A stretch of DNA of 64,000 nt from Xylanibacter rarus. GTDB taxonomy: Bacteria > Bacteroidota > Bacteroidia > Bacteroidales > Bacteroidaceae. Below the pieces are notes generated by a model. That model was not told the origin of the DNA. It saw nothing but the letters and a program-made list of their open reading frames with translations, and did not search any database. Made by a program: the position numbers and the translations under genes. The stretch lies in NCBI RefSeq assembly GCF_001275135.1, contig NZ_LFQU01000004.1, positions 97,099-161,098 of the forward strand. The letters run 5' to 3'. Positions 1-39,528 of this stretch are shown piece after piece (within the stretch, counting starts at the first letter, position 1; each line of letters opens with the position of its first letter).

Positions 1-2548
<2,548 letters not shown>

Positions 2549-2629
2549 CACATAACGCCATACTGGCAGCAATCACACAAGGTACGGCGGCCTACAGCCC
2601 GACCATTGCATAACCCATTGACGCTCAAT

Positions 2630-2712
2630 GCGTTGCAAAAGGTCATCTTTTAGCTCCTGAAAGGTGGCCTTTTAGCGTGCAATATGTGGTCTTTTGCAAT
2701 GCGAAATGGCAC
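2630..2712 (+). repeat. R1 four-unit palindromic repeat, copy a
   Basis: Four consecutive units of 21-22 nt, each a variant of TGCAAAAGGTGGCCTTTTNG, followed by a GGAAAAC-like tail. The joints differ in a fixed order (gcgttgc, ctcc, cgtgc, aatgc), and this order recurs in the other copies. It sits between the DUF6377 gene and the next promoter. Confidence 0.85.
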
Positions 2713-2783
2713 ATATTGGAAAACCTGGGGGAAACACTTAACCATGACAAGGGCTGAAAATACTGAAACATTTGGGATAATCC

Positions 2784-2814
2784 TTTGCCGTTAAGGCTAT
2801 TTTTCTTATTTTTG
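2784..2814 (+). promoter_or_regulatory. Promoter upstream of the GH31 gene
   Basis: TTTG at 2784-2787, a 19-nt spacer and TATTTTTG at 2807-2814 match the Bacteroidetes consensus. The predicted start near 2820 leaves an unusually long leader of about 390 nt before the GH31 start codon. Confidence 0.72.
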
Positions 2815-2820
2815 CAACAT

Positions 2821-3211
2821 AGCTCCTGCACGCCCACTACAGGGCAACGGCTGCAGGACGGGCCGTAAGCAGACCGCACGCGGACACACGGCTACGGCAA
2901 CGGACAACACGATAATACGCAAACAACAATGGACAGAGAGCGACGCTCGAACATTATGCCTTATGGCATAGTACAAAAACAACACCGCTGCGTCATATCT
3001 ACAGCCACGGCAACTCATGCCGCCGCAGGCCGCAACGGCACACCGGCACGCAGCCGGCGCACACAAGCCACACGGCCACAAGACAAAACCTGAAAAGCAT
3101 AATAACAGAAGGCATAATTAGCACAGCCGCGCCCCCGGCCACGAAACACTAACGGCAAGGGGACGGAGGACTGAAAAAGCCGGCAAAAAACATATAAAAA
3201 CAAACAAAAAA
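2821..3211 (+). other. Long T-poor leader before GH31
   Basis: About 390 nt without a convincing gene. The sense strand is poor in T and rich in A, C and G. It contains a small hairpin, TATGCC-ttat-GGCATA at 2955-2970. I see no riboswitch family I recognise. It may be a regulatory 5' untranslated region for the GH31 gene. Confidence 0.4.
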
Positions 3212-5455
3212 ATGAAACCCACAAACTACCATCTTTTCGACTTTCTCGACTTCGACGTCAGCCTTAGCCGCAACGAGTCGCTATGGAAGGCATGCAAACC
3301 CTCAGCCGTGTTCGAGAACGACGGCGACATCTGCGTGCTCGTTCCGTTCCAGAAGCAGATACTGGCCAACGACATGGCAGCCGACACCGGCGTGCCGCGT
3401 GAGGAATATACGCTCATCATCAGGCAGTATGAGCCAAAGATCCTGCGCCTGTTCATAGGCTTCGGCGAGGAGCAGATGACCGACGAGTCGGAGATGTTGC
3501 AGATGAGCGACAGGGTTAAGAAGACGCCGCTGAGCGTAAGCTTCGGCAACGGCCGATGGACCGTCACCGACCCCGAAGGCACCGTCAGGGCCGTTATCAA
3601 CATACAGGAGCCCGAGCTCGACCGCTGGAGCACGCTGCTGCCCGACCCGCAGGAGACGCTCGACATAAGGCTGTATCCCGACGGAAAGCGCGAGATACGC
3701 CTGGCCGCCTACGACCACTTCTCGCCTCCGCGCTACGACGCGCTGCCCATAGGCTTCTGCAAGCTTGACGGACAGAAGGAGCGCGCCACGATGTCGTTCG
3801 AGTGCAAGGCCGACGAATGTTTTGCCGGAACGGGCGAACGCTTCACCAAGATGGACCTCAGCGGACAGACGTTCTTCCTCAAGAACCAGGACGGACAGGG
3901 CGTAAACAACCGCCGCACATATAAGAACATTCCGTTCTACGTGTCGAGCCGCATGTACGGAGCATTCTATCACACCTGCGCCCACAGCAAGCTGTCGCTC
4001 GCCGGAGTGTCAACGCGCTCGGTAGAGTTCCTCAGCGACCAGGCCATGCTCGACGTATTCCTCATCGGAGGCGACTCTATGGAGGAGATTATCCGCGGCT
4101 ACCGCGACCTGACGGGCTACCCCTCGATGCCTCCCTTGTGGAGCTTCGGCGTGTGGATGAGCCGCATGACATACTTCAGTGCCGACGAGGTGAACGAGAT
4201 TTGCGACCGCATGCGCCGCGAACATTATCCCTGCGACGTGATACACTTGGACACCGGCTGGTTTAAGACCGACTGGCTGTGCGAATGGAAGTTCAACGAA
4301 GAGCGCTTCCCCGACCCCGAAGGCTTCATCCGCGGCCTGAAGGACAAGGGCTACCGCGTAACTCTGTGGCAGCTGCCCTACGTGGCTGAGGATGCCGAAC
4401 AGATTGACGAGGCGCGCAAGAACCACTATATCTGCACGCTGACAAAGCAGCAGGAGGGCGAAGGTTCTAACTTCTCGGCCCTCGACTACGCCGGAACAAT
4501 CGACTTCACCGACCCCGCCGCCACCGAGTGGTACAAGGGTTTGCTGCGCCGTCTGCTGAACATGGGCGTGGCAGCGATAAAGACCGACTTCGGCGAAAAC
4601 ATCCACATGGATGCCATCTACAAGAACATGAAGCCCGAACTGCTCAACAATCTCTATGCGCTGCTGTATCAGAAGGCTGCCTATGAGGTTACCAAGGAGG
4701 TTACGGGCGACGGCATAGTATGGGCAAGAGCTGCCTGGGCGGGCTGCCAGCGCTATCCTCTGCACTGGGGAGGCGACTCATGCAGCTCGTGGGACGGCAT
4801 GGCCGGATCGCTCAAGGGCGGACTTCACTTCGGTCTGTCGGGCTTCGCCTTCTGGAGCCACGACGTGCCCGGATTCCACACTCTGCCCAACTTCATGAAC
4901 TCACGTGTACGTGATGACGTCTACGTCCGCTGGACTCAGTTCGGCGTCTTCTCGTCACACATCCGCTATCACGGCACCAACAAGCGCGAGCCTTGGCACT
5001 ACCCTGCCATCGCCCCGATAGTGAAGAGATGGTGGCAGCTGCGCTATAAGCTCATACCTTACATCCTTCAGGAAAGCCGGAAGGCCGTAAGCGGCGGCTC
5101 AACGGTGCTCCAGGCGCTGATATTCCATCACCCGGACGACCCCATGTGCTGGCATATCGACGACGAATATTACTTCGGCGACGACTTCCTCGTGGCTCCC
5201 GTGATGAACAGCGAAGGCCGCCGCGACGTCTATTTGCCTGAAGGCAACTGGGTGAACTTCTTCACCGGCGAGCGCTACAGCGGCGGAAAGTGGCTCAAAG
5301 ACCTCAATGTGCCGCTCGAACTGATGCCCGTCTACGTGCGCGAAGGTGCCGAAATACCTGTTTATCCCGAGCCGGTAGACTGCACAGACGACATGGACCT
5401 GAGCAAGACAGAATATATAAAGATTGACGGAAGGTTTGGAGGGATTGAGTGGTAA
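3212..5455 (+). CDS. yicI: GH31 alpha-xylosidase (YicI-type)
   Basis: A 747-residue family 31 glycoside hydrolase. The nucleophile motif KTDFGE is present (Asp about 459), and the acid/base region GGDSC has its Asp at about 522. That spacing and the following LSGFAFWSHD stretch match YicI-type alpha-xylosidases better than plain alpha-glucosidases. The N-terminal beta-sandwich, the (beta/alpha)8 barrel and the C-terminal beta domains all fit in the length. No signal peptide is seen, so it should act in the cytoplasm or be exported by another route. With the GH3 beta-glucosidase nearby, trimming of xyloglucan oligosaccharides is a reasonable inference. Alpha-glucosidase activity is the main alternative. 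It starts at the ATG at 3212 after an A-rich stretch. Confidence 0.88.
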   Translation: MKPTNYHLFDFLDFDVSLSRNESLWKACKPSAVFENDGDICVLVPFQKQILANDMAADTGVPREEYTLIIRQYEPKILRLFIGFGEEQMTDESEMLQMSDRVKKTPLSVSFGNGRWTVTDPEGTVRAVINIQEPELDRWSTLLPDPQETLDIRLYPDGKREIRLAAYDHFSPPRYDALPIGFCKLDGQKERATMSFECKADECFAGTGERFTKMDLSGQTFFLKNQDGQGVNNRRTYKNIPFYVSSRMYGAFYHTCAHSKLSLAGVSTRSVEFLSDQAMLDVFLIGGDSMEEIIRGYRDLTGYPSMPPLWSFGVWMSRMTYFSADEVNEICDRMRREHYPCDVIHLDTGWFKTDWLCEWKFNEERFPDPEGFIRGLKDKGYRVTLWQLPYVAEDAEQIDEARKNHYICTLTKQQEGEGSNFSALDYAGTIDFTDPAATEWYKGLLRRLLNMGVAAIKTDFGENIHMDAIYKNMKPELLNNLYALLYQKAAYEVTKEVTGDGIVWARAAWAGCQRYPLHWGGDSCSSWDGMAGSLKGGLHFGLSGFAFWSHDVPGFHTLPNFMNSRVRDDVYVRWTQFGVFSSHIRYHGTNKREPWHYPAIAPIVKRWWQLRYKLIPYILQESRKAVSGGSTVLQALIFHHPDDPMCWHIDDEYYFGDDFLVAPVMNSEGRRDVYLPEGNWVNFFTGERYSGGKWLKDLNVPLELMPVYVREGAEIPVYPEPVDCTDDMDLSKTEYIKIDGRFGGIEW

Positions 5456-5465
5456 TAGGTTAAAT

Positions 5466-5857
5466 TGGTAGTTAAAGGAGTTAAAGTAGTTATCGCCGGC
5501 CGTGCCGGCTAGGAGTTAAAGCCATTAGTCTGAACGCTTATCGTCAATCTTACAATAAGTAAACAGACATTTAATACAATAGCTTCTGCCATAAGCAGGA
5601 ACGCAAAGCGATAACTTCTTTAACAACCCTAACCACCTGACAATCAGCAACAAAATAAAAAATATAGAGTCATTTGCCCGCAATGCCAATGGCTTTAGCC
5701 CTTAACCGGCACGGCCGGAGACAACACCTCAGACCTATCTAACCGCCTGACAATCAGCAATTAAATAAAAATATAGAGTCATTTACCAACAAGACAAATG
5801 ACTTTAACTCCTAGCCGGCACGGCCGGCGATAACTCCTTTAACTACTATAACTACTT
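5466..5857. repeat. R2 MITE-like intergenic element 1
   Basis: The whole gap between the GH31 and corrinoid fusion genes. The left arm (about 5468-5525) and right arm (about 5797-5857) are near-perfect inverted repeats of a GTAGTTAAAGGAGTTAAAG motif, each with a GC hairpin (GCCGGC-cgt-GCCGGC at 5496-5510; GCCGGC-acg-GCCGGC at 5814-5828). Inside, a segment of about 90 bp is duplicated in tandem (about 5627-5720 and 5737-5830). It has no coding capacity. Confidence 0.8.
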
Positions 5858-5864
5858 ATTGAAC

Positions 5865-8800
5865 ATGTGGAAAAAGAATCTTGAAGAAACAAAACAGCGA
5901 TACATACAATGGTGGAACCACAAGGGCATTGTGCTGAACATGTGGGAACACTTTCAGGAAGGCGTCAAGCCGCATGCCGATGTGCCTGCGCCGCCAGCCC
6001 CGAAGGACCTCAACCAGAAATGGTTCGACCCGAAATGGCGCGCGGAATATCTCGATTGGTATGTGGCTCACAGCTGTCTGAAGGCCGATATGCTGCCGGT
6101 TGCAAACACACAGCTGGGCCCCGGCTCGCTCGCCGCTATCCTTGGAGGCGTGTTCGAAGGCGGAGAGGACACGATATGGATACACCCCGACCCTGACTTC
6201 ACCGACGACATAAAGTTTAATCCGGAGCATCCCAACTGGCTGCTGCACAAGCAACTGCTGACGGAATGTAAGAAGAAGGCCAAGGGCAACTATTATGTGG
6301 GCATGCCCGACCTCATGGAAGGCATGGACGTTCTGGCGGCTCTGAAGGGCACCGACAAGGTGCTGATGGACACGGTTACGCAGCCTGAGGTGCTGGAACG
6401 GCAGATGCAGCAGATAAACGACATCTACTTCAAGGTGTTCGACGAGCTTTACGACATAATACGCGAGGGCGACGAGATGGCTTTCTGCTACTTCTCTTCG
6501 TGGGCACCGGGCAAGATGAGCAAGCTGCAGAGCGACATATCAACGATGATAAGCGTGGAAGACTACCGCCGCTTTGTGCAGCCTTTCATACGCGAACAGT
6601 GCCAGAAGATTGACTACACGCTGTATCATCTCGACGGAGTTGGCGCCCTTCATCATCTGCCGGCGCTGCTCGAGATTGAGGAACTCAACGCAATACAATG
6701 GACTCCGGGCGTAGGTGAGCCGCAGGGTGGCTCGCCTAAATGGTACGACCTGTACAAGAAGATACTGGCAGGAGGCAAGAGTGTGATGGCATGCTGGGTA
6801 ACGCTCGACGAACTGCGGCCGCTGCTCGACAACATAGGAGGCAACGGAGTGCATATAGAGATGGACTTCCACAACGAGGACGAGGTGGAGAAAGCCATGC
6901 GCATCGTTGAGGAATATCAGGAGGACGAGGCAAAGAAACCGCAGCAGGAGGACAACACCATACGCATAAGCGGCGGCAAGAACGACGCCGATAAGGACGT
7001 GGAGGCAATAATAGAGAGCGCCGAACGCGAGTTTGAGGAGCTTGCCGACAAGGGCGACAAGGTGCCTGCCGACTGGCTCGACGGCTGCCCCATCGTATCG
7101 GCAGGACGCAACCGCATACTCGTTATCGACGGAGCCATGGGCACGATGATACAGAGCCGACGCCTCGGCGAGGCCGACTTCCGCGGCGAAAGGCTTGCAG
7201 GGCATGACGTGAACGTGAAGGGATGCAACGACCTTCTGTGCCTTACGCGCCCCGACGTCATTGAGGACATTCACCGTAAGTATCTCGAAGCCGGAGCCGA
7301 CATCATCGAGACAAACACCTTCAACGCGCAGCGCATATCCATGGCAGACTATCATCTGGAGAACTTCTGCCGCGAGATAAACCTCGAGGCGTGCCGCATA
7401 GCGCGCAAGGCTGCCGACGAATTTACAGCCAAGACACCGCACAAGCCGCGCTTCGTGGCAGGTTCGATGGGTCCGACGAGCAAGACCTGCTCAATAACAT
7501 CAGACACCACACAGCCGGGCTGGCATGCCTTCAGCTACGACACTCTGCGCGACGCCTACGCAGAACAGGCCGAAGCGCTGATTGAAGGCGGCGTCGACGC
7601 CCTGCTGATAGAGACGATATTCGACACAAAGAACGCGCAGGCGGCCATCGAGGCGGCACGCGGAGCAATGCGCAAGACAGGCAAACGTCTGCCGCTGATG
7701 CTGAGCTTCAGCATAGCCACTGCCGACGGACACAACATGCTGGGACAGAGCATCGGGGATTTCCTCGCATCCGTTGCCGGCAGCGACATCATGTCGGTGG
7801 GCGTAAACTGCTGTTCTGACGTAAGCCTTGCCGCCGACATGCTCGTACATCTCGGCAAGACTACGCCCTACATGATAAGCCTTTACCCCAACGCCGGCAT
7901 GCCCGACGCCGAGGGACGCTACAGCCACACGCCCGAGATGCTGCAGCGCGAGCTGTGGCCGCTGATAGAGTGGCACGTGCTCAACATCGTGGGAGGATGC
8001 TGCGGCACAACCGACATGCACATCAGAAAGCTTGCCGAAGCCGTGGTTCCCGCCGAAGGACTTATCCTTTCGCCCCACCCTGCGCAACCATCTGATAATG
8101 AGGGCGTTGCAAAAGGTGGCCTTTTAGGCTCCAATATGCCGTCTTTTAGCGTGCAAAAGGTGGCCTTTCACAATGCAAAAGGTGACCTTTCAGAAAACCA
8201 CGGGCACGACCATGCCGCCGAACCCTGTGAATGCTGCGCGCCGAAGGCCGCAAACGAGCCATCGGCAAGCGACGAGATATTCGACGCCATACTGCAAGGC
8301 AACGCCGACAAGGCAGCCGAAGCGACGCAGAAGGCCGTAGACGCAGGCATGGCTCCGCAGGACATCATCAACAGTCAGATGATACGCGCCATGGGCGAGG
8401 TGGGCCAGCGCTTCCAGGACGGCAAGGCCTTTGTGCCCCAGCTGCTCATGGCAGGACGCGCCATGAAGGCCGCCCTCGTGCTGCTGAAGCCACTCATGGC
8501 AGGCAAGGCCGACGTTACGATAGGCCGCGTGGTCATCGGAACGGTAAAGGGCGACCTGCACGACATAGGCAAAAACCTCGTTGCATCGATGCTCGAGGGC
8601 AGCGGCTTTGAGGTGATAAACATCGGCATCGATGTGCCGAGCGACAAGTTTGTAGAGGCTCTGAAGGACAACCACGCCGACATCCTGTGCATGAGCGCCC
8701 TGCTTACCACGACAATGACCTACATGAAGGATGTAATCAAGGCCGTGGAAGACGCCGGACTGCGCGACAAGGTGAAGATTATGGTGGGCGGAGCGCCCGT

Positions 8801-8900
8801 AAGCCAGGCCTTCGCCGACGAGATAGGAGCCGACGGATACAGCGACAATGCCAACGAAGCAGTGAAGGTGGCAAGGGAGCTGGTGAAGGGAAAAGAATAA
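5865..8900 (+). CDS. URO-D methyltransferase / homocysteine methyltransferase / corrinoid fusion
   Basis: A 1011-residue three-part methyltransfer protein. Residues 1-345 are a uroporphyrinogen-decarboxylase-fold methyltransferase. Its zinc HxC position reads HLD, so it probably handles a methyl donor rather than a thiol. After a charged linker, residues about 415-735 are a MetH-type homocysteine S-methyltransferase (DGAMGTM start; zinc cysteines in GVNC and GGCC). Residues about 800-1005 are a cobalamin-binding module with DxHxxG (Asp897, His899). The methyl-folate domain and the SAM reactivation domain of normal MetH are absent. I infer methyl transfer from an unknown donor to the corrinoid and on to homocysteine, making methionine. 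Residues about 747-777 are encoded by an R1 repeat. ATG 5865 was preferred over TTG 5859. Confidence 0.88.
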   Translation: MWKKNLEETKQRYIQWWNHKGIVLNMWEHFQEGVKPHADVPAPPAPKDLNQKWFDPKWRAEYLDWYVAHSCLKADMLPVANTQLGPGSLAAILGGVFEGGEDTIWIHPDPDFTDDIKFNPEHPNWLLHKQLLTECKKKAKGNYYVGMPDLMEGMDVLAALKGTDKVLMDTVTQPEVLERQMQQINDIYFKVFDELYDIIREGDEMAFCYFSSWAPGKMSKLQSDISTMISVEDYRRFVQPFIREQCQKIDYTLYHLDGVGALHHLPALLEIEELNAIQWTPGVGEPQGGSPKWYDLYKKILAGGKSVMACWVTLDELRPLLDNIGGNGVHIEMDFHNEDEVEKAMRIVEEYQEDEAKKPQQEDNTIRISGGKNDADKDVEAIIESAEREFEELADKGDKVPADWLDGCPIVSAGRNRILVIDGAMGTMIQSRRLGEADFRGERLAGHDVNVKGCNDLLCLTRPDVIEDIHRKYLEAGADIIETNTFNAQRISMADYHLENFCREINLEACRIARKAADEFTAKTPHKPRFVAGSMGPTSKTCSITSDTTQPGWHAFSYDTLRDAYAEQAEALIEGGVDALLIETIFDTKNAQAAIEAARGAMRKTGKRLPLMLSFSIATADGHNMLGQSIGDFLASVAGSDIMSVGVNCCSDVSLAADMLVHLGKTTPYMISLYPNAGMPDAEGRYSHTPEMLQRELWPLIEWHVLNIVGGCCGTTDMHIRKLAEAVVPAEGLILSPHPAQPSDNEGVAKGGLLGSNMPSFSVQKVAFHNAKGDLSENHGHDHAAEPCECCAPKAANEPSASDEIFDAILQGNADKAAEATQKAVDAGMAPQDIINSQMIRAMGEVGQRFQDGKAFVPQLLMAGRAMKAALVLLKPLMAGKADVTIGRVVIGTVKGDLHDIGKNLVASMLEGSGFEVINIGIDVPSDKFVEALKDNHADILCMSALLTTTMTYMKDVIKAVEDAGLRDKVKIMVGGAPVSQAFADEIGADGYSDNANEAVKVARELVKGKE
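8103..8197 (+). repeat. R1 repeat, copy b, inside coding sequence
   Basis: The same four-unit structure as the other R1 copies, ending in a CAGAAAAC tail, but lying in frame within the corrinoid fusion gene. It encodes the linker between the homocysteine methyltransferase and the B12 module (residues about 747-777; begins GVAKGG). Confidence 0.85.
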
Positions 8901-8904
8901 TATT

Positions 8905-9130
8905 TCAAGGAGTTAAAGGAGTTAGAGTAGTTAAAGGAGTTAAAGCCAAATGCCCTGCCGGTTATTAACAAGGCTAAATACGCCGGTCATTACATCATCT
9001 GCAGCGCATCGGTCTCATTACTCCCATAAGTCATACATCCCCCATAAAGCCGCCAACCGGCTGTAAGGCTAATGACTTTAACTACTGAGCGGGCACAGCC
9101 CGCGATAACTCCTTTAACTACTATAACTAC
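8905..9130. repeat. R2 MITE-like intergenic element 2
   Basis: Fills the gap between the corrinoid fusion gene and the symporter. The left arm (8908-8948) carries four AGTTAAAG/AGTTAGAG repeats and ends AAAGCCAAATG. The right arm (about 9072-9130) is its inverted partner, with the hairpin GCGGGC-aca-GCCCGC at 9089-9103. The core also holds a CCCAT-rich tract (9016-9056). Confidence 0.78.
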
Positions 9131-9148
9131 CAAATAAACAACATATCC

Positions 9149-10753
9149 ATGAACTCACAATCATTACATGGCCTCGACTGGGGCATACTAATAGCATACT
9201 TCGTCATCCTGCTTGCCATCGGCATATGGGCAAGCACCAAGCGCAAGAAGGGCAGCAGCCTGTTTCTTGCCGAACATTCTCTGCGCTGGCATCACATAGG
9301 ATTCTCCATGTGGGGCACCAACGTAGGCCCCTCTATGCTCATAGCGTCGGCAAGCGCCGGCTTCACCACGGGCGTCGTGTCGGGCAACTACGCATGGTAC
9401 GCCTTCGTCTTCATAGCCCTGCTCGCCTTCGTCTTCGCCCCGCGCTATCTCGGCAGCAAGGTTTCCACCCTGCCCGAGTTTATGGGCCTGCGCTTCGGAC
9501 AGTCCACACGCAACATGCTGGCGTGGTATACCATCGTCACGATACTCATCTCGTGGCTCGCGCTGACGCTCTTCGCGGGTGGCATAATCATACGCCAGGT
9601 GTTCGGCATACCCATGTGGATGTCGGCATTCCTGCTGCTCGGCATCTCCGCCTTCTTCACAATGCTCGGCGGACTGAAGGCCGTGGCCTACACCAACGTA
9701 TATCAGATGGTGCTGCTCATACTCGTTTCGGCCACGCTGACCTTCGTAGGAATATACCGCCTCGGCGGCGACTCGTTCACAGGAGGCATCGCCGTGCTGG
9801 CCAATCCCGACATTGTGCCGTCTAATTACTGGAACCTCTTTCAGCCCAACAGCGACAAAGACTTCCCCTGGCTGCCCATACTGCTGGGTTATCCTATAAG
9901 CGGACTGTGGTTCTGGTGCACCGACCAGTCGATGGTTCAGCCCGTACTGGCAGCCAAAGACCTCAGCGAAGGACAGAAGGGAGCTAACTTTACGGGCTGG
10001 CTGAAGATACTCGACGTGGCCATATACATCATCCCCGGCATCGTATGCTTCGCCCTCTGGAAGACCGGTTTCTTCGGAGGCATGACCATTGAGGCCGACA
10101 ACGCCTACATGACTCTTGTGTCGAGCCTCTTCCCTGTGGGCATGGTTGGCCTCGTGCTTGCCGTTCTCACCGCCGCGCTCATCAGCACCATAGGCTCTGC
10201 GCTCAACGCCTTGAGCACGGTGTTCACGATGGACATCTACGTGAAGAACATCCGTCCGGAGGCCACACAGAAGGAAATAATGCGCACAGGACGCATAATA
10301 ACCGTCATAGGCGCACTGGTGTCGATAGTCATCACCGTGGCTGTTGACAACATAAAGGGCATGAACCTTTTCAACGTATTCCAGTCGGTGCTCAGCTTCA
10401 TCGCACCACCTATGGCGGCAGTGTTCGTCATGGGCGTGTTCTGGAAGCGCTGCACGACGCTCGCCGCCAACGTAACGCTCACCTTCGGAACCATCTTCAG
10501 CATCGGCTCGGGCATCCTTTACCTGTGGGTTATACCGGGAGCCACGGAGCAGGTGCACTTCATGATGCTGTCGTTCTACATCTTCGTAATCCTCATCATC
10601 AGCATGATTATCGTCAGCCTATGCAACAAGCAGGCAACGGTAAGCCCCGAGATAGTGAAGCTGAGCGAAAGACCAAAGCGCACAGTTGTGGTGGCATGGA
10701 CGCTGCTTGCCGTGGTTATGGTGGCTCTCTACATATTCTTCAACGGACACTGA
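9149..10753 (+). CDS. Sodium:solute symporter, SGLT-like
   Basis: A 534-residue inner-membrane symporter of the SSS family with about 13-14 membrane segments along its whole length. The GGLKAVAYTNVYQ stretch (about residue 172) is the SSS signature, and WFWCTDQSMVQ (about residue 250) resembles the sugar-binding SGLT branch. Sodium-driven uptake of a sugar or related small solute is likely. Its gene follows the corrinoid fusion gene through R2 element 2 and ends at a strong terminator, so it may share that transcript. The substrate could be a sugar released by GH3/GH31 or a methylated compound; the motif favours sugar. Confidence 0.85.
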   Translation: MNSQSLHGLDWGILIAYFVILLAIGIWASTKRKKGSSLFLAEHSLRWHHIGFSMWGTNVGPSMLIASASAGFTTGVVSGNYAWYAFVFIALLAFVFAPRYLGSKVSTLPEFMGLRFGQSTRNMLAWYTIVTILISWLALTLFAGGIIIRQVFGIPMWMSAFLLLGISAFFTMLGGLKAVAYTNVYQMVLLILVSATLTFVGIYRLGGDSFTGGIAVLANPDIVPSNYWNLFQPNSDKDFPWLPILLGYPISGLWFWCTDQSMVQPVLAAKDLSEGQKGANFTGWLKILDVAIYIIPGIVCFALWKTGFFGGMTIEADNAYMTLVSSLFPVGMVGLVLAVLTAALISTIGSALNALSTVFTMDIYVKNIRPEATQKEIMRTGRIITVIGALVSIVITVAVDNIKGMNLFNVFQSVLSFIAPPMAAVFVMGVFWKRCTTLAANVTLTFGTIFSIGSGILYLWVIPGATEQVHFMMLSFYIFVILIISMIIVSLCNKQATVSPEIVKLSERPKRTVVVAWTLLAVVMVALYIFFNGH

Positions 10754-10778
10754 CAACAAAACTGAATTATGATACAGC

Positions 10779-10818
10779 AAAAAGCGCGGCAAGCCCTATG
10801 TGGACTTGCCGCGCTTTT
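10779..10818 (+). terminator. Rho-independent terminator after the symporter
   Basis: Perfect 14-bp stem AAAAGCGCGGCAAG ... CTTGCCGCGCTTTT with a loop of about 12 nt, 26 nt past the symporter stop. Confidence 0.88.
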
Positions 10819-11015
10819 CTATATGTTTCAAGCCATGTCTGACGCGCAATAAAAAGGCAGAAAGGCCCGTTTTAAAGGATTATACGCACGATAATAAAAG
10901 ACTATATGCCAGACTATAAAAGACAACTGAACGCATAATGAAAAGCGACACGGCATATAATGTAAGGCAACGCGACGCGAGATGAATCACGTTATCATGC
11001 CAAACGCACCGCAGA

Positions 11016-11702
11016 CTACTTCTTGCGGCGGCGCTTGTAGCAGTCTTTGAAGTCGCATAGACCGCACGAATATTCGAGCTTGCGCACCGAAGGACCGAGG
11101 CCTATCACGCCGCTCACCGACTTGATGGGCACCATAAGGCTCGAGTCGGTAAGGCTTACGCCGCACGGACGCTCCTCGCCGAACAGGGGGAAGAGCATCT
11201 GCTGCTGAGAGACATGCCACCCGCAGTAGCCCGGACTGAAGCGGTTGGTGTGGCGCCAGCCGCGCTCATCAATGGCTTTCTGCAGTGAAAGCTCCATGCA
11301 GTCGGCCGCCTTCTCGGCTATGACGCTGCCTATTGAGTCGGCAACAAACACCTTCACCATGTCGTCTTCGTCCTTAAGGCGGTGCTGAAGCTGCTCAAAC
11401 TCCTCGCCGGCGGTGGCCACGAAGAAGGCGAAAGCCTGCGAGCCGCGCAGCTGCCGGCTGATGATGCGCCCCACGCTGAAGCTGACTGAGCCTACGGTGA
11501 GCACATGCTGCTCTGCATCGAGCTGTCCGGGAGTGATGAAGAAGCAGAAACGCGGGCGCAGAACGGCCTTTATACGCTCCATGACGGCAGAGGTCTCGGC
11601 CTGCACGGCAGCGTCGGGCACGGCGTCGCCATAGCCCATCTGCTCGTAGACTTCAGACGGAAGGATGTTGAGGTCGTCGAAAATTATTTCCTGTTTTAGC
11701 AT
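11016..11702 (-). CDS. Stand-alone methionine synthase reactivation-domain protein
   Basis: A 228-residue protein resembling the C-terminal SAM-binding activation domain of MetH. The core motif RFSPGY (about residues 152-157) is the SAM-binding signature, followed by the QQQMLFPLF helix. In MetH this domain uses SAM to re-methylate cobalamin that has become oxidised. The neighbouring corrinoid fusion lacks such a domain, so this protein probably serves it in trans. The C-terminus has an unusual cysteine cluster (CGLC then DFKDC) followed by a basic tail, perhaps a metal or Fe-S site. I chose ATG 11702 (MLKQEIIF); the frame extends to 11741, but those residues look non-native. It is the last gene of a minus-strand group with the MtaA-like and nitroreductase genes. 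Confidence 0.82.
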   Translation of the reverse strand: MLKQEIIFDDLNILPSEVYEQMGYGDAVPDAAVQAETSAVMERIKAVLRPRFCFFITPGQLDAEQHVLTVGSVSFSVGRIISRQLRGSQAFAFFVATAGEEFEQLQHRLKDEDDMVKVFVADSIGSVIAEKAADCMELSLQKAIDERGWRHTNRFSPGYCGWHVSQQQMLFPLFGEERPCGVSLTDSSLMVPIKSVSGVIGLGPSVRKLEYSCGLCDFKDCYKRRRKK

Positions 11703-11744
11703 TTTATTCTGATTAAAAAGCGGCACAACGCTGCGCCGCATGAC

Positions 11745-11774
11745 GCCGCTGCGGCCCTCGGAGGGTGCAGCGGC
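11745..11774 (-). promoter_or_regulatory. Compound hairpin upstream of the reactivation gene
   Basis: An outer stem GCCGCTGC / GCAGCGGC encloses an inner CCCTC/GAGGG stem, about 45 nt before the start codon. It could be a leader structure or an intercistronic processing site. It does not carry the cobalamin-riboswitch B12 box. Confidence 0.4.
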
Positions 11775-11879
11775 TTATGTAGTTAAGTATGTCGGGCGGG
11801 GTCTGTCAATATGAATCGAGTCTGACCATGACCTTTACGTCATGCTGCAAGGCCTCTGACGAACTGACAGAACCTGCGC

Positions 11880-12890
11880 TTACAGTTTGCTGTTCCACTC
11901 GCCGACAGCCTCAAAGAAGGCATCGATGTTGGCAAACGGAGTGTGCGGCGGGGTGTCGCATCCGCTTGATATCACAAAGTTTGGATAGTTGCTCATCTTG
12001 CGCAGCAGGTCTGTGGTGGCGCGGCGCATCTCGTCGGGCGTGGCAGACTTGAACAGACTGACGGGGTCGAGGTTGCCCATGGTGAGAGCCGTGGGCGGCA
12101 CCTGACGCGACACCTGCTCCATGTCGCACTTGTTGCCGAAGTGATATGCGGCGGCTCCGGTGGCAGTCATGGCGTTGGTGCACTGCCCGGTGTTGCCGCA
12201 GTTGTGTAGCACGACGGTGAAATAGTCGTCCTGCACGGCCTCGACAATACGCCTGACGTAGACCGAAGAGAAGCGCATGCAGTCGTCGTCAGACATCAGT
12301 CCGGCGGCAGGCTCAGCCATGACAACGCCGTTGGCGCCCGTCTTCTTCAGCGCGATGCAGTATTTCAGGATGAAGTCGGTACACTTGTCGAGCAGCATGG
12401 CGGCAGCCTCGGGGTTCTGATATATCAGAATCATAATCTCCGACATGTCGTAGAGACGGCCTGCAAGCGAGAAAGGTCCGATGCATCCGGCAAGCACGGG
12501 GCGGTCGGTTATGGCACGGGCGGCCAGCAGATTGGCCTTGAGATATGCCGGCACGCGGCCTGCGCTGAGCGACGGCACCTGCAGACGTGCTATGTCGTCG
12601 GCGCTGTTGAGCATGTGCCCCCTGACGGCCGGCACCTCGTCGGGCTCGAAGGCGATGTCGGCGCCGAAGGCTTCAGCCTCAACGGTGAGGTCCATTATCA
12701 CTGTGGCGGCAGCCGTGTCGTAGCGTCCGGCAAGCGCCCTGACGGCGTTGAAGTGCACCTCGCCGTCGCTCACGGCGTCGATCACGCGTCGCCCTATCAT
12801 CTCGATGCCGGGATGTGTCATTATGGGCACAGCCATCACCTTCTTGCTGTCGATGACGGCTTTGGCCCATTCGGTCATGTTTATCTTCAT
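11880..12890 (-). CDS. MtaA/MtbA-like zinc methyltransferase (URO-D family)
   Basis: A 336-residue URO-D-fold methyltransferase of the MtaA/MtbA/CmuA type. It keeps the zinc triad expected for thiol activation: His and Cys in LHNCGNT (about 229-231) and a distal Cys in SSGCDTPP (about 308). Known relatives move methyl groups between a corrinoid protein and a thiol such as coenzyme M. This host would not be expected to use coenzyme M, so the thiol here is unknown. Beside the corrinoid fusion and reactivation genes, a role in the same methyl-transfer chain is likely. It follows the nitroreductase by 20 nt on the same strand, suggesting one transcript. True uroporphyrinogen decarboxylase is unlikely because of the HxC...C pattern. 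Confidence 0.83.
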   Translation of the reverse strand: MKINMTEWAKAVIDSKKVMAVPIMTHPGIEMIGRRVIDAVSDGEVHFNAVRALAGRYDTAAATVIMDLTVEAEAFGADIAFEPDEVPAVRGHMLNSADDIARLQVPSLSAGRVPAYLKANLLAARAITDRPVLAGCIGPFSLAGRLYDMSEIMILIYQNPEAAAMLLDKCTDFILKYCIALKKTGANGVVMAEPAAGLMSDDDCMRFSSVYVRRIVEAVQDDYFTVVLHNCGNTGQCTNAMTATGAAAYHFGNKCDMEQVSRQVPPTALTMGNLDPVSLFKSATPDEMRRATTDLLRKMSNYPNFVISSGCDTPPHTPFANIDAFFEAVGEWNSKL

Positions 12891-12910
12891 CTGTGTGTGT
12901 GCGTTATGTG

Positions 12911-13438
12911 TTATTCAACAAATCTTACGTAGTCATCCTTGCGCGGCGCAGCCTCTCTGACGGCACCCTCGCGCGGGTATCCCAGCACGCAGTGGCCTAT
13001 GCCCTCATAGTCGCCCTCAATGCCCCATGCGCGCAGCATGGCCTTGCCTTCCTCGCTGTCGAACACCTCGCGGGCGCGGTGAATCCAGCAGCTGCCCAGT
13101 CCGAGAGCGTGTGCGGCGTTCATAAGGTTGCCCATTACGAGCGATCCGTCGTAGAGATAAGTGGGGCGTGTGCGGTCGGCCAGCACCACGAGCACCACCG
13201 GCGCGCCGTAGAAGGGGTCGGCCTCGGTGCCCATCACGGCGGCGTTGAGCTCAGAGAGGCGGTCGCGAACGGCCTTTGATGTTACGGCAACGATGAGCGG
13301 CGACTGCGCTCCGCGGCCCGTTGGGGCGTAGGTTCCTGCCTCTGCCACAGCCTCGATAAGGCTGCGCTCCGGCATCCGGTCGGGGTCGAAGGCGCGCACG
13401 CTGCGGCGTGTCTTCATGTTTTCTATAACTGTGTTCAT
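12911..13438 (-). CDS. Nitroreductase family flavoprotein
   Basis: A 175-residue nitroreductase-fold FMN enzyme. The N-terminal TRRSVRAF motif binds FMN phosphate; the middle has APTGRGAQSP and the C-terminal half GLGSCWIH and GIGHCVLGYP, all typical of the family. The length is normal for a single-domain member. It probably reduces quinones or nitro-aromatic compounds with NAD(P)H; the natural substrate is unknown. It is the first gene of the minus-strand run leading into the two corrinoid-related genes, so a role as electron donor for keeping the corrinoid reduced is possible but speculative. Confidence 0.85.
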   Translation of the reverse strand: MNTVIENMKTRRSVRAFDPDRMPERSLIEAVAEAGTYAPTGRGAQSPLIVAVTSKAVRDRLSELNAAVMGTEADPFYGAPVVLVVLADRTRPTYLYDGSLVMGNLMNAAHALGLGSCWIHRAREVFDSEEGKAMLRAWGIEGDYEGIGHCVLGYPREGAVREAAPRKDDYVRFVE

Positions 13439-13524
13439 AATCTTTACTGGTTAAAAAGTTTGTCTTTCACATGCCGCGGAGCGTCAGACTGACTGCCATT
13501 ATGCCGCGGCATGATTGATATGTG

Positions 13525-13532
13525 CAAAGATA
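13525..13532 (-). promoter_or_regulatory. Candidate -7 element for the nitroreductase operon
   Basis: TATCTTTG on the minus strand, about 87 nt upstream of the start codon. No clear TTTG lies at the expected distance. The leader would contain the inverted repeat around GCCGCGG and CCGCGGC (13471-13512). Confidence 0.4.
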
Positions 13533-13689
13533 CTAAAATTATCGTCCGCATGTTCAGGCGCAATGAATAAAAAGCCTTAAAGATACATTGAAAAACGTGC
13601 CGGAGACCCGAAAAAATGACATCGCGGCGCTGATTGCGGCCCGATGATGCGCCGGTTTTATCCGCCGTTGTAACATACTGACATTCAGC

Positions 13690-13783
13690 GCGTTGCAAAA
13701 AGCCATGTTTCAGGCTCTAAAAGATGGCCTTTCGGCGTGCAAAAGGTGGCCTTTTGGAGGCTGAAAGGGCACCTTTCGGAAAA
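13690..13783 (+). repeat. R1 repeat, copy c
   Basis: Four units of 21-22 nt with the standard joints and GGAAAAC tail, in the 569-nt gap between the divergent nitroreductase and acetyltransferase genes. The rest of that gap has no gene. Confidence 0.85.
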
Positions 13784-13966
13784 CAGGCACACGGCAGGCG
13801 CCATCAGGGCGCGCCTCGGCACGGCCACAGACAGGCAGCAAGGACACTGTCTGAAGGCGGCACGGACCATGTGGCAGATGTGCATAAAAAGCTTACATAC
13901 AATGCCCAAAAAGCCTTAAAAAGGCTGATTTAGCGTTATTTATTTTTTTATATGGCGCAAAACTCG

Positions 13967-13974
13967 TATTTTTG
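13967..13974 (+). promoter_or_regulatory. Candidate -7 element for the acetyltransferase-like gene
   Basis: TATTTTTG 33 nt before the start codon; the -33 region is only a T-run, so the match is partial. Confidence 0.45.
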
Positions 13975-14007
13975 CATGTTTAAGTTGTCTAATATAAAGT
14001 AAGACAA

Positions 14008-15156
14008 ATGTCAACTATTAAAATCAAAAAAGTAGAAACAAGGAAAGACCTTGAGCGGTTTATAGACTTTCACTATGACCTCTACAAGGACAATGAGTAT
14101 GACGTTCCCACACTGTTCAGCGACGACCTGAACACCCTGAGCAAGGACAAGAACGCGGCGTTCGAGTTCTCCGAGGCCGAGTATTTCATGGCGTTCGACG
14201 GACGTGGGCGCATGGTGGGCCGCGTGGCAGCCATAATCAACCACCGCGCCAACAAGCGCTGGGGGCGCAAGTGCGTCAGATTCGGATGGATAGACTTCAT
14301 CGACGACATCAACGTGTCTAGGGCCCTGTTCGACGCCGTTGAGAAATACGGCAAGTCGAAAGGCATGGAAGAGATGATAGGTCCGCTCGGATTCACCGAC
14401 CTCGACCCCGAAGGCATGCTCACAATGGGATTCGACCAGCTGGGCACTATGGCCACCATATACAACTATCCGTACTATCCGGAGCACATGGAGAAGCTGG
14501 GCGACTTCGAGAAGGACAACGACTATGTGGAGTTTAAGCTCATGGTGCCCGACAAAGTGCCCGAGAAATACACCAAGATAGCCGAGATGATACAGAAGCG
14601 CTACGACCTGCACATCAGGAAACTGACCAAGAAGGACGTGTTTGAGGGCGGCTACGGCAAGAAGATGTTTGAGCTGATAAACACCTGCTTCAAGGACCTG
14701 TACGGATATTCGGAACTGTCTGAAAGGCAGATCGACCAGTACATCAAGATGTACTTCCCCCTGGCCGACCTCAGCCTCATCACCGTTGTAGAGGACCGCA
14801 GCGCCGGCAACAAGCCCGTGGCCGTGGGCATCACCATCCCGTCGCTGTCGAAGGCGCTGCAGAAGTGCCGCCGCGGAAGGCTCTGGCCCTTCGGATGGTG
14901 GCACGTGCTGAGGGCTCTGAAGGCTCACAAGACCGAGGGCGTAGACCTGCTGCTGCTCGGAGTGCTGCCCGAATACCGCATGAAGGGTGCCAACGCCCTT
15001 ATGTTCTACGACCTCATCCCGCGCTATCAGGCCTACGGATTCAAATGGGGCGAGAGCCAGGTTGAGATGGAGACCAACGAGAACGTGCAGAGCCAGTGGC
15101 AGTATCTCGAGACCATCCTCCACAAGAGAAGACGCTGCTACAAGAAGTGGATATAG
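14008..15156 (+). CDS. GNAT-superfamily acetyltransferase-like protein
   Basis: A 382-residue soluble protein common in Bacteroidetes and annotated there as an N-acetyltransferase (YghO-like). The C-terminal half has the GNAT pattern: a strand LLLLGVLPEYR followed by the acetyl-CoA loop-like RMKGAN (about 324-329) and an aromatic final region. The N-terminal half includes the conserved FGWIDFIDD and IGPLGFTDLDPEGML stretches. No substrate can be assigned. It starts at ATG 14008 after an AT-rich promoter region. It is not evidently in an operon with parE, since the four-helix-bundle gene and AT-rich repeats lie between. Confidence 0.7.
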   Translation: MSTIKIKKVETRKDLERFIDFHYDLYKDNEYDVPTLFSDDLNTLSKDKNAAFEFSEAEYFMAFDGRGRMVGRVAAIINHRANKRWGRKCVRFGWIDFIDDINVSRALFDAVEKYGKSKGMEEMIGPLGFTDLDPEGMLTMGFDQLGTMATIYNYPYYPEHMEKLGDFEKDNDYVEFKLMVPDKVPEKYTKIAEMIQKRYDLHIRKLTKKDVFEGGYGKKMFELINTCFKDLYGYSELSERQIDQYIKMYFPLADLSLITVVEDRSAGNKPVAVGITIPSLSKALQKCRRGRLWPFGWWHVLRALKAHKTEGVDLLLLGVLPEYRMKGANALMFYDLIPRYQAYGFKWGESQVEMETNENVQSQWQYLETILHKRRRCYKKWI

Positions 15157-33725: not shown

Positions 33726-35471
33726 TCAGATACAAGCCTTAAGTTTGTCCTTATACATTGACGGAGTGATGCCTACAATTTTGCGGAACAGCTCGACAAA
33801 TGTGGTGTACGACTTGAAACCTACGCTCTCGGCTATGGCGTTCAGCGTATAAGAACCGTAGCCTTCCGTATCAGACATACGCAGACAAGCAAGATGGATG
33901 CGGTATTCATTAACGTAGTTCTTAAAACTCTTGTGGAATGTCTCGTTGATTACGAGCGAGACATACTTACTGTTTGAGCCGACAAGGGCAGCCATACGTG
34001 CAAGCGAAAAGTCGGCGCTGCAGAATTCTGTGGTGTTCTCCATTATGTCGACTACCGAATCGAGCAGCTTTCTGCGCATGTCATCATTGATGCCACCCGA
34101 CTTGGCTTTATGTACCATATTGTCAGACTGCTCTGAGACACCGGCATCCTTGACGACATCATCGGCATCATAGGCTGCCAGCCTACCCCGAAGCTGTTCG
34201 GCCTCGGCCTCCGACTCTTTAAGACGGCTTACCGCATCGTTCAGGCGCTGCCTCATTATCTCCTGATTATTGACAAAGTTGCGGTTGACGACAAACAGAT
34301 TGTTGTAGCTCTTGTCTATACGCTTTTTCTGTCTATATACAACAAGCAAGAGCAGCCCTACGACAAGCGTTACCACAGACACGGCGGCTATGGTGTATCT
34401 TTGCGCCGAGATCGTGAGCACACGCTCCTTCTCGCGCTTGTTGAGCGAGGCTATGTATTTGTCGTACTTGTCCATCTCATAAAGCGTCTGCTCGTTTTTG
34501 ACGGCATCAAACTCGTTAGTGTTGAATATCGAGTCCTTCTCATGCTGATAACGCGCCCTGTATCGGCTTGCAGCCTTGTAATTGCCTACTGAATCATAAA
34601 AGTCTGCATATTTTACAAGGACATCAAGACACGAATGCAGTATTCCGTGCTTTACGGCCGTACTCTCGCACAGACGCAGGTATTTCAACGTAGAGTCACG
34701 GTCGCCCAGGCTAATATAGTTTTGATAAAGCTCTATATAAGCATAACAAATATATCTCGGACTCATTTTATTCTTAACAGCATAATTCAACAAGTCGTTG
34801 CATGTATTAATGGCTTCACGGTAGTTTTTTTCAGTTCTGAGAATCAGTCCGAAATTAAAAATGCTCATGTAGCAGTTTTCCTTGTCGGCAGGATTCTTCA
34901 CCTTCTCGGACATGCGGTGATACTTTCGCGCCTCTTTCGTTTTGCCTATCTGAGTGCTCACTGCGGTCATATTGGCAAGAATCTTGTACTCATTGGCCCT
35001 GTCGCCATATTTATGACAAGATTCATAGCCTTTCTTGTAATACGACAAGCCTTTGGCATAGTCCTCGAACACACAATAGACACTTGCTATGTTGTTATAG
35101 AAGTGCCCTATCTCCCGCCTGTCCTTGCATGCGCTGTAGATGCGCAGTCCGCTGAAATAAGCTGAGAGAGCACCTGCGTAGTTGCCTTTCATATAGAGAA
35201 TATTGCCTTTCTTCAGATATGCCATGGCGCATTGCTGCTTGTCTTTGTCGGAGAGTTTGTCGTTCATTCGGTTGCACGCCACCATATAATACACCAGGGC
35301 GGTGTCAGAATGTCCGGCATTGAGATAATGTTCTGCCTTCTTCATTATATAGTCTATCGAGGCGTCAGATGTCTTTTTGACCAAAGTCATATAGTCTTTG
35401 GCCAGCACGCGGGCACCGGCGCATGAGGGCAGGAGCATCAGCAGCACAAGCAGAAGCGTGCGCAACGCCAT
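33726..35471 (-). CDS. Membrane TPR-AraC regulator B
   Basis: A 581-residue membrane-bound transcription regulator. A signal peptide (LRTLLLVLLMLLPSCAGA) is followed by TPR repeats in the periplasm (about 45-330; YLKKGNILYMKGN, YNNIASVY), one membrane segment (about 360-380; SVVTLVVGLLLLVVY), a coiled coil (about 385-430) and a C-terminal AraC DNA-binding domain (about 485-581; LARMAALVG, LNAIAESVGFKSYTTF). I chose the ATG at 35471 because it starts the signal peptide; an ATG at 35612 is also downstream of the promoter. It is a paralogue of the regulator at 39685-41430, with the same length. It probably controls the adjacent secreted-protein gene. Confidence 0.85.
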   Translation of the reverse strand: MALRTLLLVLLMLLPSCAGARVLAKDYMTLVKKTSDASIDYIMKKAEHYLNAGHSDTALVYYMVACNRMNDKLSDKDKQQCAMAYLKKGNILYMKGNYAGALSAYFSGLRIYSACKDRREIGHFYNNIASVYCVFEDYAKGLSYYKKGYESCHKYGDRANEYKILANMTAVSTQIGKTKEARKYHRMSEKVKNPADKENCYMSIFNFGLILRTEKNYREAINTCNDLLNYAVKNKMSPRYICYAYIELYQNYISLGDRDSTLKYLRLCESTAVKHGILHSCLDVLVKYADFYDSVGNYKAASRYRARYQHEKDSIFNTNEFDAVKNEQTLYEMDKYDKYIASLNKREKERVLTISAQRYTIAAVSVVTLVVGLLLLVVYRQKKRIDKSYNNLFVVNRNFVNNQEIMRQRLNDAVSRLKESEAEAEQLRGRLAAYDADDVVKDAGVSEQSDNMVHKAKSGGINDDMRRKLLDSVVDIMENTTEFCSADFSLARMAALVGSNSKYVSLVINETFHKSFKNYVNEYRIHLACLRMSDTEGYGSYTLNAIAESVGFKSYTTFVELFRKIVGITPSMYKDKLKACI

Positions 35472-35672
35472 GAAGCAAGAATTTAAAACAGAACGAGAGG
35501 CACCGGCCTTATCGTGTGCAGATTCTGCCGTAGAGAGCTGCGAACCAAGGCACGGAGATATCTGTGATGCCGGATTATAGGATGAATTTATAATGCTTAT
35601 GATGTTTTTCATTAGCCGTAAGATTTCTACGTTTATATTCAAGGCTTTCTTTGCAGAAAGCCAAAATATCAG

Positions 35673-35703
35673 CAAAGATAGTGAAAGGTGAGAGCAATAC
35701 AAA
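35673..35703 (-). promoter_or_regulatory. Promoter of regulator B
   Basis: On the minus strand TTTG, a 19-nt spacer and TATCTTTG, a full consensus match. It is duplicated at 41630-41660. A degenerate second copy lies around 35755-35790. Confidence 0.75.
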
Positions 35704-39300: not shown

Positions 39301-39400
39301 CGTTGATGTTTTCGCCAATAGTTTTGAATCCTTTCTCTGCATAGGCGTTTCCAGTGAACGCCGTAAAAGCAGCCATTAGAAAAATGAAGATCTTTTTCAT
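36341..39400 (-). CDS. Secreted T9SS-sorted protein A (paired with regulator A)
   Basis: A 1019-residue exported protein of unknown function. The signal peptide (IFIFLMAAFTAFTGNAYA) is followed by propeller-like short repeats (SPNGQYFVGT, SEDGNIVIGN, SPNGKFVIFS; about 25-390), a fibronectin-III-like domain (about 400-490), a jelly-roll/MAM-like domain (about 505-680; FFDDFDSGS) and further beta domains. The last 75 residues match a type IX sorting domain (TPGIYVLKISKGGKAVVKK). I chose ATG 39400 (MKKIFIF) over an upstream TTG. The DNA is AT-rich. It shares its leader and regulator type with the smaller T9SS gene, but the bodies are only distantly similar. Confidence 0.75.
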   Translation of the reverse strand: MKKIFIFLMAAFTAFTGNAYAEKGFKTIGENINGSGISPNGQYFVGTSVAIEHSINGMDMKSFIYNIKDGTLSWITEADPSDFTKCGRFKAVSNNGIICGDAINTDIKLASEENPISAAIWENGKRTLLEYGDFDISTISSSADGAFSQDISEDGNIVIGNFNIGSGAFITPCKWVKNSEGKYVIEFLTVPENMKNGYAMKISSDGKIFGIITSNEDDDKGTYLCIWDDDKITVLTHEDLGIEFRYLCVMNLIDVSPNGKFVIFSESNTFKTYIYNTETKECRPLPSFGEYDNWNNFSYASIDNNGNVAGAYDYGNPILGPMPYTHPFWYSYERNAIYDFSYYMTIAAEGVNSDIDFTFDEETLTIPSFISADGQTIAGNADIYNTFLQQTPKFWVLNVDDISNTEIPLTPTGLNAKSDALKEAKLSWTKDETEYKTLTLKSYNIYRDGELIGNIEATEQEMSFRDKDIYGHPEYTVEAVLAKADGGTMLSQKSVPFKASVPDTYALPFFDDFDSGSLETNYWTTEADYGEGEDTKWILDGYGLLQTTCAAIYVSNAKPHSSSLVSRPMDATNEESVNVSFANIYGFINIEDQALDNDSISLEVTTDNGDTWKSVGDWSIAELNPQHKWNMINVDISKEVAGKIFSIRFHSHGQGKSLYYVDIENVKITTGNEVKKDAPEGLTGCKNSSDTPLSLIWKNNFGAYQLNHINSVVESMFTLGNEGKEVIGANAFDKDDLAPYKGKYLTGVTTIINFYDWYEVNKGIHAAIVVFEDGKLVREQEIEDLPYNEYFTTALDEPLLIDGSKELKIGIKVHDYDAEQIPLLYAVSDKFIAGKSDLFSEDNGATWQKVSEFYGENNEKSPCCWNITGCVTDEPELKPSETENIYYSVFRNGELLSTAVLDKLQTHYFDNDAKDGDSYYVMAYYTDGSVSDASEAFIFDSSTDISQYTIDDLSISFNSETKNININGEFDKAEIFNTNGICVSQSAANAISLNGVTPGIYVLKISKGGKAVVKKIIIK

Positions 39401-39528
39401 AAGCAAAAAGGTTTAAAGTTTTTAAAACAATTATTTCACACAAATATTCATCGTCCGATTTACATCTGCCAGAAAACAGAACAAATATCTTCAAGAAAGC
39501 ATTATGTCCGGCAGACTTTTCTCACTTG

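Follow-up and report, generated by a model that had tools for sequence, protein, structure and literature searches.

Where would a cobalamin-dependent methionine synthase that has no methyl-folate domain obtain its methyl group? The question is raised by a 64,000-nucleotide stretch of the Xylanibacter rarus genome (assembly GCF_001275135.1, contig NZ_LFQU01000004.1, positions 97,099 to 161,098; hereafter the window), in which one open reading frame (ORF) of 1013 aa joins an N-terminal methyltransferase-like domain (N), a homocysteine S-methyltransferase domain (H) and a corrinoid, or B12-binding, module (B). From its domains and genomic setting, this fusion probably forms methionine without folate. 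A more specific model, to which we give a slight preference, is that it would be a B12-dependent, folate-independent methionine synthase whose donor is a 2-O-methyl sugar of the pectic polysaccharide rhamnogalacturonan-II (RG-II).

Domain architecture of the fusion

The ORF begins with a TTG codon, the next in-frame ATG being at position 5865. Pfam analysis (E value ≤0.01) assigned S-methyl_trans to the middle of the protein, and B12-binding_2 (aa 805–876) and B12-binding (aa 889–1002) to its C-terminal part; the same profile search reported neither the pterin-binding domain PF00809 nor the reactivation domain PF02965. The H domain includes residues C651, C714 and C715, presumably the counterparts of the zinc-binding cysteines of MetH, and all three are invariant in the 35 aligned fusions. 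The corrinoid module contains the sequence DxHxxG at aa 899–904, the corrinoid-protein motif, which presumably binds cobalt as in MetH; D899, H901 and G904 are again invariant (35/35). Compared with the NCBIfam models, the whole fusion has a score of 543.6 bits with metH (TIGR02082), below the cut-off of 1010.85, while the best model for the C-terminal part is MtgC (NF047996, MtgC_2; 224.7 bits, cut-off 370), and TIGR02370 (pyl_corrinoid) gives 210.1 bits against a cut-off of 215.3. The module scores to the MtaC model as well as to those of MtgC and MtbC. Neither Pfam nor NCBIfam returned a model of MtaB, MtgB or MttB for the fusion.

The related loci are the best 80 of 190 matches, and the survey of ORFs covers 87 related ORFs from loci L015–L102, with L078 left out of the ORF counts and of the N-domain tree. 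The composition N+H+B was found in 70 of these ORFs, N+B in 12, N+H in three that end at a contig edge, and N alone in two, each adjoined by a corrinoid gene. Because 70 of the 87 are N+H+B and three more are N+H cut at the contig end, the fusion is not an accident of assembly. The first-pass annotation, made from the sequence of the window, had described a single polypeptide with a MetH-type homocysteine domain and a B12 module, lacking both a methyl-folate and a reactivation domain. The Pfam domains and the composition of the relatives agree with this description, and the profile search for a pterin domain in the fusion found none. Two further observations concern the distribution of the protein. 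One Prevotella genome, G220, contains two copies of the fusion (L042 and L078) and has a total of three matches to PF02574. An N domain with 87% identity to that of the window is encoded in MT840006.1 (positions 3627–4685), a record of 4.9 kb under the label Bacteriophage sp., which may represent bacterial DNA included in a set of phage sequences.

Apparent absence of a folate route

The genome of X. rarus (99.91% complete) encodes a single PF02574 protein, which is the fusion, and a single PF00809 protein, which is the dihydropteroate synthase; no complete MetH was found elsewhere. Profile searches of the same genome did not find methylenetetrahydrofolate reductase (MTHFR) or MetE, and PF01717 is absent. 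In a sample of 201 genomes of the family, MTHFR is present in 183 and PF02574 in 190, and the PF02574 matches listed mostly belong to open frames of approximately 890–980 aa, a length that would leave no room for a reactivation domain.

The joint loss of these functions was examined in 52 genomes, namely that of X. rarus, three relatives (G122, G023 and G049) and the 48 genomes behind 49 of the 80 named loci; completeness is known for X. rarus and for the family sample, none being given for genomes reached via loci. The triple fusion occurs in 46 of the 52. In 16 genomes it is the only PF02574 protein (a single match, in a frame of 946–1051 aa), and MTHFR is missing in 12 of them, among which are Marseilla massiliensis An824 and Xylanibacter caecicola PCHR. 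Where the fusion is accompanied by another PF02574 protein, MTHFR is missing in one of 30 genomes (Fisher p 5e-7, uncorrected for kinship). The remaining six genomes, which have N+B without the homocysteine domain, all keep another PF02574 protein (915–1253 aa) together with MTHFR. The proposal of a methyl donor other than methyl-tetrahydrofolate thus gains support from a genome without MTHFR, MetE or any other PF02574 protein and from the co-loss in relatives, and we consider the folate independence of the fusion well supported.

The N domain

The N domain (aa 1–385) has no Pfam match at E ≤1, no best stretch in NCBIfam and no PDB sequence at E ≤1. A profile of 41 N-domain rows gave one chance match in the PDB (E value 1.5), comparison of the 41 members with Pfam gave weak unrelated matches alone (best E value 0.064), and the PF01208 profile of the uroporphyrinogen decarboxylase (URO-D) family matched none of the 41 at E ≤10. 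A tblastn search against plasmids identified a Subdoligranulum plasmid protein as a distant relative (E value 1e-7), which in pairwise comparison has 21% identity with the N domain over 286 aa (E value 8e-15) and which matches PF01208 with 38.2 bits, above the cut-off of 23.9. Because this protein matches both, the N domain is, by transitive homology at the sequence level, a remote member of the URO-D superfamily. Three residues, H257, D259 and H338, do not vary among the 41 close relatives that were aligned, and of these H257 alone is kept in the Subdoligranulum protein. As regards the URO-D fold attributed to this domain in the first-pass annotation, the kinship with the superfamily is upheld through the intermediate sequence, but there is no direct PF01208 match and the fold itself depends on remote homology. 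The Subdoligranulum plasmid (L128, positions 1839–14333) also encodes three other URO-D proteins, a GH38 protein and ABC-transporter genes, apparently for sugar as judged by eye, and this cluster is a possible further methyl-sugar system.

Origin of the fusion

In the N-domain tree (88 rows) the label N+H+B needs three changes. In the H-domain tree, which is unrooted and gave long-branch warnings, one branch (SH-aLRT 99.6) separates 74 fused H rows, including one duplicate (L127 of L026), from 11 canonical MetH rows. The 11 MetH proteins are 39–59% identical to the window's protein in the H domain and 30–40% in the corrinoid module, while the corrinoid modules of the N+H+B relatives are 60–86% identical to that of the window. 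Since the fused H domains branch apart from MetH and the corrinoid modules differ from those of MetH, the simplest history would be that an N+B demethylase acquired a MetH-type homocysteine domain between its two parts.

Neighbouring genes and the link to RG-II

The features of the locus are collected in Table 1. Conservation of the neighbourhood was assessed in 47 loci with at least 6.5 kb to the left and at least 9 kb to the right of the N match (locus coordinates); L061, which is on the same contig as L014, was omitted from this count and from the tree. In these long-flank loci the corrinoid module goes with N in 47 of 47, GH31 and the symporter are each present in 37 and GH141 in 35, and all three of the latter occur jointly in 35. 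The expectation that the fusion and its neighbours would be found together in other genomes is therefore confirmed, both by these 35 loci and by the adjacency of the MtaA-like and reactivation genes described below. The GH31 protein of the window has as its best NCBIfam model the alpha-xylosidase PRK10658 (478 bits, below the cut-off of 606) and as its best PDB match 5f7c (1486 bits); with no signal peptide visible by eye, it is probably cytosolic. The GH141 proteins of the relatives do appear by eye to start with a signal peptide.

Table 1. Features of the X. rarus locus (positions in the window)
Feature	Position	Strand	Basis
GH31 glycosidase, alpha-xylosidase-like	3212..5455	+	Pfam GH31 barrel, 288.7 bits
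Three-part fusion (N methyltransferase-like, homocysteine S-methyltransferase, corrinoid module), 1013 aa	5859..8900	+	Pfam, NCBIfam, alignments
N domain, aa 1–385, remote URO-D-superfamily member, presumed donor:corrinoid methyltransferase	5859..7013	+	Homology through a bridge protein; function predicted
Homocysteine S-methyltransferase domain, aa 421–729	7119..8045	+	PF02574, 297 bits
Corrinoid module, MtgC/MtbC-like, aa 805–1002	8271..8864	+	PF02607 and PF02310
Sodium:solute symporter, presumed sugar importer	9149..10753	+	PF00474, 201.9 bits; TIGR00813, 275 bits (over cut-off 184)
Lone MetH-type reactivation domain	11016..11741	-	PF02965, 52.4 bits, profile 120–271 of 273; RxxPGY present
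MtaA/MtbA-like URO-D-family protein with HxC...C	11880..12890	-	PF01208, 201.8 bits

The association with RG-II was examined in the family sample, where the N domain occurs in 10 of the 201 genomes, spanning three genera. GH139 is present in 23, including all ten with the N domain (hypergeometric p 5e-11, uncorrected for kinship). According to PMC12282258, with which the structures 9HYQ and 9HMB were deposited, GH139 is a feature of bacteria that degrade RG-II. The protein that supplied our GH139 query matches both structures. Of the ten genomes with the N domain, nine have two strong GH141_M matches (E value <1e-40), and no such pair occurs in the 13 GH139 genomes that lack the N domain. A gene for a GH139-rhamnosidase extends right up to the fusion gene in L044 and L062, and a protein encoded upstream in L062 matches 5MQM (1244 bits), the structure of BT0986, a member of GH106. 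In X. rarus, relatives of the GH106, GH139 and rhamnosidase proteins of these two loci are encoded on another contig, C24, and of the two GH141 genes of this genome one is on C24 and one approximately 25 kb upstream of the fusion on the contig of the window. BT1002, the founding member of GH141, frees 2-O-methyl-D-xylose-alpha-1,3-L-fucose (2-O-Me-Xyl-Fuc) from chain A of RG-II (PMC10154630). From the linkage with GH141, GH31 and the symporter and the co-occurrence with GH139, the most likely donor would be one of the O-methyl sugars of RG-II. Chain B offers 2-O-methyl-fucose as another candidate, to which the same chemistry would apply.

Other parts of the window were also inspected. Upstream there are genes for a DUF6377 protein (Pfam) and an apparent GH3 enzyme (by eye). 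The gap of 403 bp between GH31 and the fusion (5455–5859) appears by eye to contain repeated units, with a palindrome of the type CCGGCACGGCCGG and a unit CTGACAATCAGCAA...ATATAGAGTCATTT present twice; it has no Rfam match at the gathering score. Likewise, no riboswitch was matched in Rfam at the gathering score in the 64 kb of the window or in eight related loci, no tRNA was found in the window, and PADLOC gave no defence-system match for the two proteins examined. The protein encoded at 36344–39406 has a weak match to a rhamnogalacturonan I lyase beta-sheet domain (44.8 bits) and one to a secretion tail (26.9 bits, at the cut-off), and its gene is flanked by AraC-type regulators with matches to tetratricopeptide repeats (33729–35702 and 39688–41571).

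Reactivation domain and MtaA-like protein

The first-pass annotation had placed the reactivation domain that the fusion lacks in a gene of its own, and this is confirmed by the PF02965 match, the sole one found in the X. rarus genome. The RxxPGY sequence in this protein is a motif of reactivation domains. With a match that covers part of the profile, the domain is supplied in trans to the fusion.

The adjoining gene had been taken for an MtaA/MtbA-like zinc methyltransferase. Its membership of the URO-D family is clear from PF01208, and the residues of the HxC...C arrangement (H229, C231 and C311) are invariant in all 18 aligned sequences, that of the window included; this is presumably a zinc site, as in the MtaA/MtbA methylcobamide:thiol methyltransferases. 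The specific assignment is less firm, the nearest NCBIfam models (PRK06252, MtbA, MtaA/CmuA and MtaA) all giving scores below their cut-offs. The reactivation gene and the MtaA-like gene are each present in 32 of the 47 long-flank loci, and they adjoin in 48 of the 48 loci that have both. The view that this pair is peculiar to the locus is weakened, since Bacteroides thetaiotaomicron also has a separate reactivation protein (PMC7311316). The MtaA-like protein might serve the demethylation of another, second donor or the methylation of another thiol.

Proposed pathway and alternative explanations

In the proposed pathway, in which catalysis, donor, transport and localization are all predicted from sequence, GH141 would free 2-O-Me-Xyl-Fuc from RG-II, the symporter would bring it into the cell, and the cytosolic GH31 would split it. 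Import, cleavage and demethylation of this disaccharide are suggested because the symporter and the alpha-xylosidase-like GH31 adjoin the B12 demethylase module. The N domain would then demethylate 2-O-methyl-xylose, or the disaccharide itself, thereby making the xylose usable, and as the first methyltransferase (MT1) it would use that methyl group to methylate the cob(I)alamin carried by the corrinoid module at the C terminus. From the resulting methylcobalamin the middle domain would transfer the methyl group to homocysteine, giving methionine, while the separate PF02965 protein would re-methylate oxidized corrinoid with S-adenosylmethionine. Whether this amounts to an RG-II methyl-ether B12 O-demethylase fused to a homocysteine methyltransferase, by which Bacteroidales of the gut and rumen would convert a methyl ether of pectin straight to methionine and several lineages would have been able to discard the synthesis of 5-methyl-tetrahydrofolate, is in our judgement evenly balanced.

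A number of observations weigh against this pathway and the folate-independent role. Among genomes whose only PF02574 protein is the fusion, G214, G221, G226 and G234 retain MTHFR; conversely, G233 is without MTHFR despite another PF02574 protein, and G109 (family sample, 88% complete) is without it with an N domain unfused to the homocysteine domain. The genome counts are not independent of one another: the tree requires nine changes for each trait, no more than three independent contrasts fall on well-supported (starred) branches, and significance was not reached in the sign test (median p 0.5). The search for MetE covered the X. rarus genome alone. Both PF02574 and MTHFR are missing in 10 of the 201 family genomes, all ten being without the N domain, so that plain auxotrophy also occurs, and methionine auxotrophy together with gaps in metagenome-assembled genomes may lie behind part of the co-loss. 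The N domain has no significant match in Pfam or the PDB, its kinship with URO-D runs through one bridge of 21% identity, and its comparison with the MtaA-like neighbour by hhalign gave probabilities of 0.5% and 3.5%, from which no support was taken. As to the donor, none of GH31, GH141 and the symporter is present in 10 of the 47 long-flank loci, and in the window GH141 does not adjoin the fusion. The GH141 of such loci is not BT1002 itself (the L023 copy has 522.6 bits with 5mqp), and the family also includes a xylanase and endo-fucanases. In wild-type B. thetaiotaomicron, 2-O-Me-Xyl-Fuc accumulates (PMC7939467). The GH31 of a Bacteroides faecis locus, however, matches 5f7c, the structure of BT_0339 of B. 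thetaiotaomicron, with 1696 bits (>90% identity by eye), so that part of the locus, the GH31 at least, may be present in a species by which the disaccharide is left over.

Four other explanations were weighed. The fusion could be a catabolic sink, by which a methionine auxotroph strips the methyl group from an imported sugar to gain its carbon, with homocysteine as a convenient acceptor and methionine as a by-product. The family genomes that have lost PF02574 and MTHFR without an N domain are consistent with this, as are the 12 of 87 ORFs that are N+B, some with the same neighbours (L059, L069 and L094 among them), since these suggest that demethylation can do without a methionine-forming step in the same protein. 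However, the 12 of 46 fusion genomes that have neither MTHFR nor another PF02574 protein keep the frame of the fusion open, and we regard a mere sink as unlikely. The donor could instead be a small methylated compound other than a sugar, such as the methanol that is freed from methyl esters of pectin, and the glycosidases would then be nearby through a shared use of pectin. RG-II does include methyl esters (PMC7939467), and the scores of the corrinoid module to the MtgC, MtbC and MtaC models would suit such a donor. Methanol, however, requires neither a symporter nor a signal-less GH31 (as judged by eye), each of which is found in 37 of the 47 long-flank loci, and none of the MtaB, MtgB and MttB models was reported for the fusion, which makes this explanation rather improbable.

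The transfer from donor to corrinoid might in truth be the task of the MtaA-like protein, or this protein might act as an alternative thiol methyltransferase, with the N domain being structural or otherwise employed. Its conserved HxC...C and its constant adjacency to the reactivation gene favour this, but with 32 of 47 long-flank loci it is a less regular companion than the corrinoid module, which goes with N in every one, and we give the explanation little credence. Least probable is that MetH lost folate binding and left the fusion as a relic, working poorly or not at all: C651, C714, C715 and the residues of DxHxxG are invariant in 35 of 35 fusions, and the corrinoid module is not close to that of MetH (30–40% identity).

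Relation to known systems

The URO-D-superfamily methyltransferases CmuA, MtaA and MtbA use a corrinoid, and CmuA is a fusion of methyltransferase and corrinoid domains. Unlike these, the N domain does not contain HxC at the matching motif, where it has YHLDG instead, and it has no detectable profile match. The fusion resembles MetH in PF02574, in the B12 cap and binding domains and in receiving reactivation in trans as in B. thetaiotaomicron, whose split MetH consists of BT0180 and the separate reactivation protein BT0249 (PMC7311316). It differs from MetH in that the pterin domain is replaced by the unrelated N domain and in that the corrinoid module is nearer to the MtgC and MtbC models. 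The nearest functional analogue we have seen is the MtgBCDE system of Ruegeria and Phaeobacter, in which the corrinoid protein MtgC is common to betaine demethylase and methionine synthesis (PMC12478193); there, however, the parts are separate, MtgD binds pterin and the substrate is glycine betaine, whereas the fusion is a single chain with no pterin part. The core methionine synthases MesA–MesD are also independent of folate, and some are presumed to draw the methyl group from corrinoid proteins (PMC7857596). Their catalytic domain is of the MetE type, while that of the fusion is of the MetH type and is joined to its own corrinoid and donor domains. The same source reports that MetF is seemingly absent from 69% of the proteomes that have MesD only.

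The related loci resemble the RG-II degradome of B. thetaiotaomicron (BT1002, GH141; BT0984, GH139; BT0986, GH106), a species reported to cleave all but one of the 21 linkages of RG-II, in that genes for relatives of its enzymes are found beside the fusion; loci of the window's type add the B12 methyltransferase module and the pair of GH31 and symporter. Literature searches aimed at the subject, within a limited collection, brought up no publication about this locus or about the cobalamin-dependent demethylation of sugar methyl ethers.

If the proposal is correct, the fusion would represent an additional class of methionine synthase, one whose catalytic domain is of the MetH type and works without folate, as well as an anaerobic, oxygen-free means of removing O-methyl groups from sugars, and it would provide a fate for the 2-O-Me-Xyl-Fuc that accumulates in B. 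thetaiotaomicron. Pectin digestion would thereby be tied to the supply of B12 and methionine in gut and rumen communities, and predictions of methionine auxotrophy for relatives that lack MetF might not hold on a suitable diet. In lineages without the synthesis of 5-methyl-tetrahydrofolate, the methionine supply would depend on pectin and B12.

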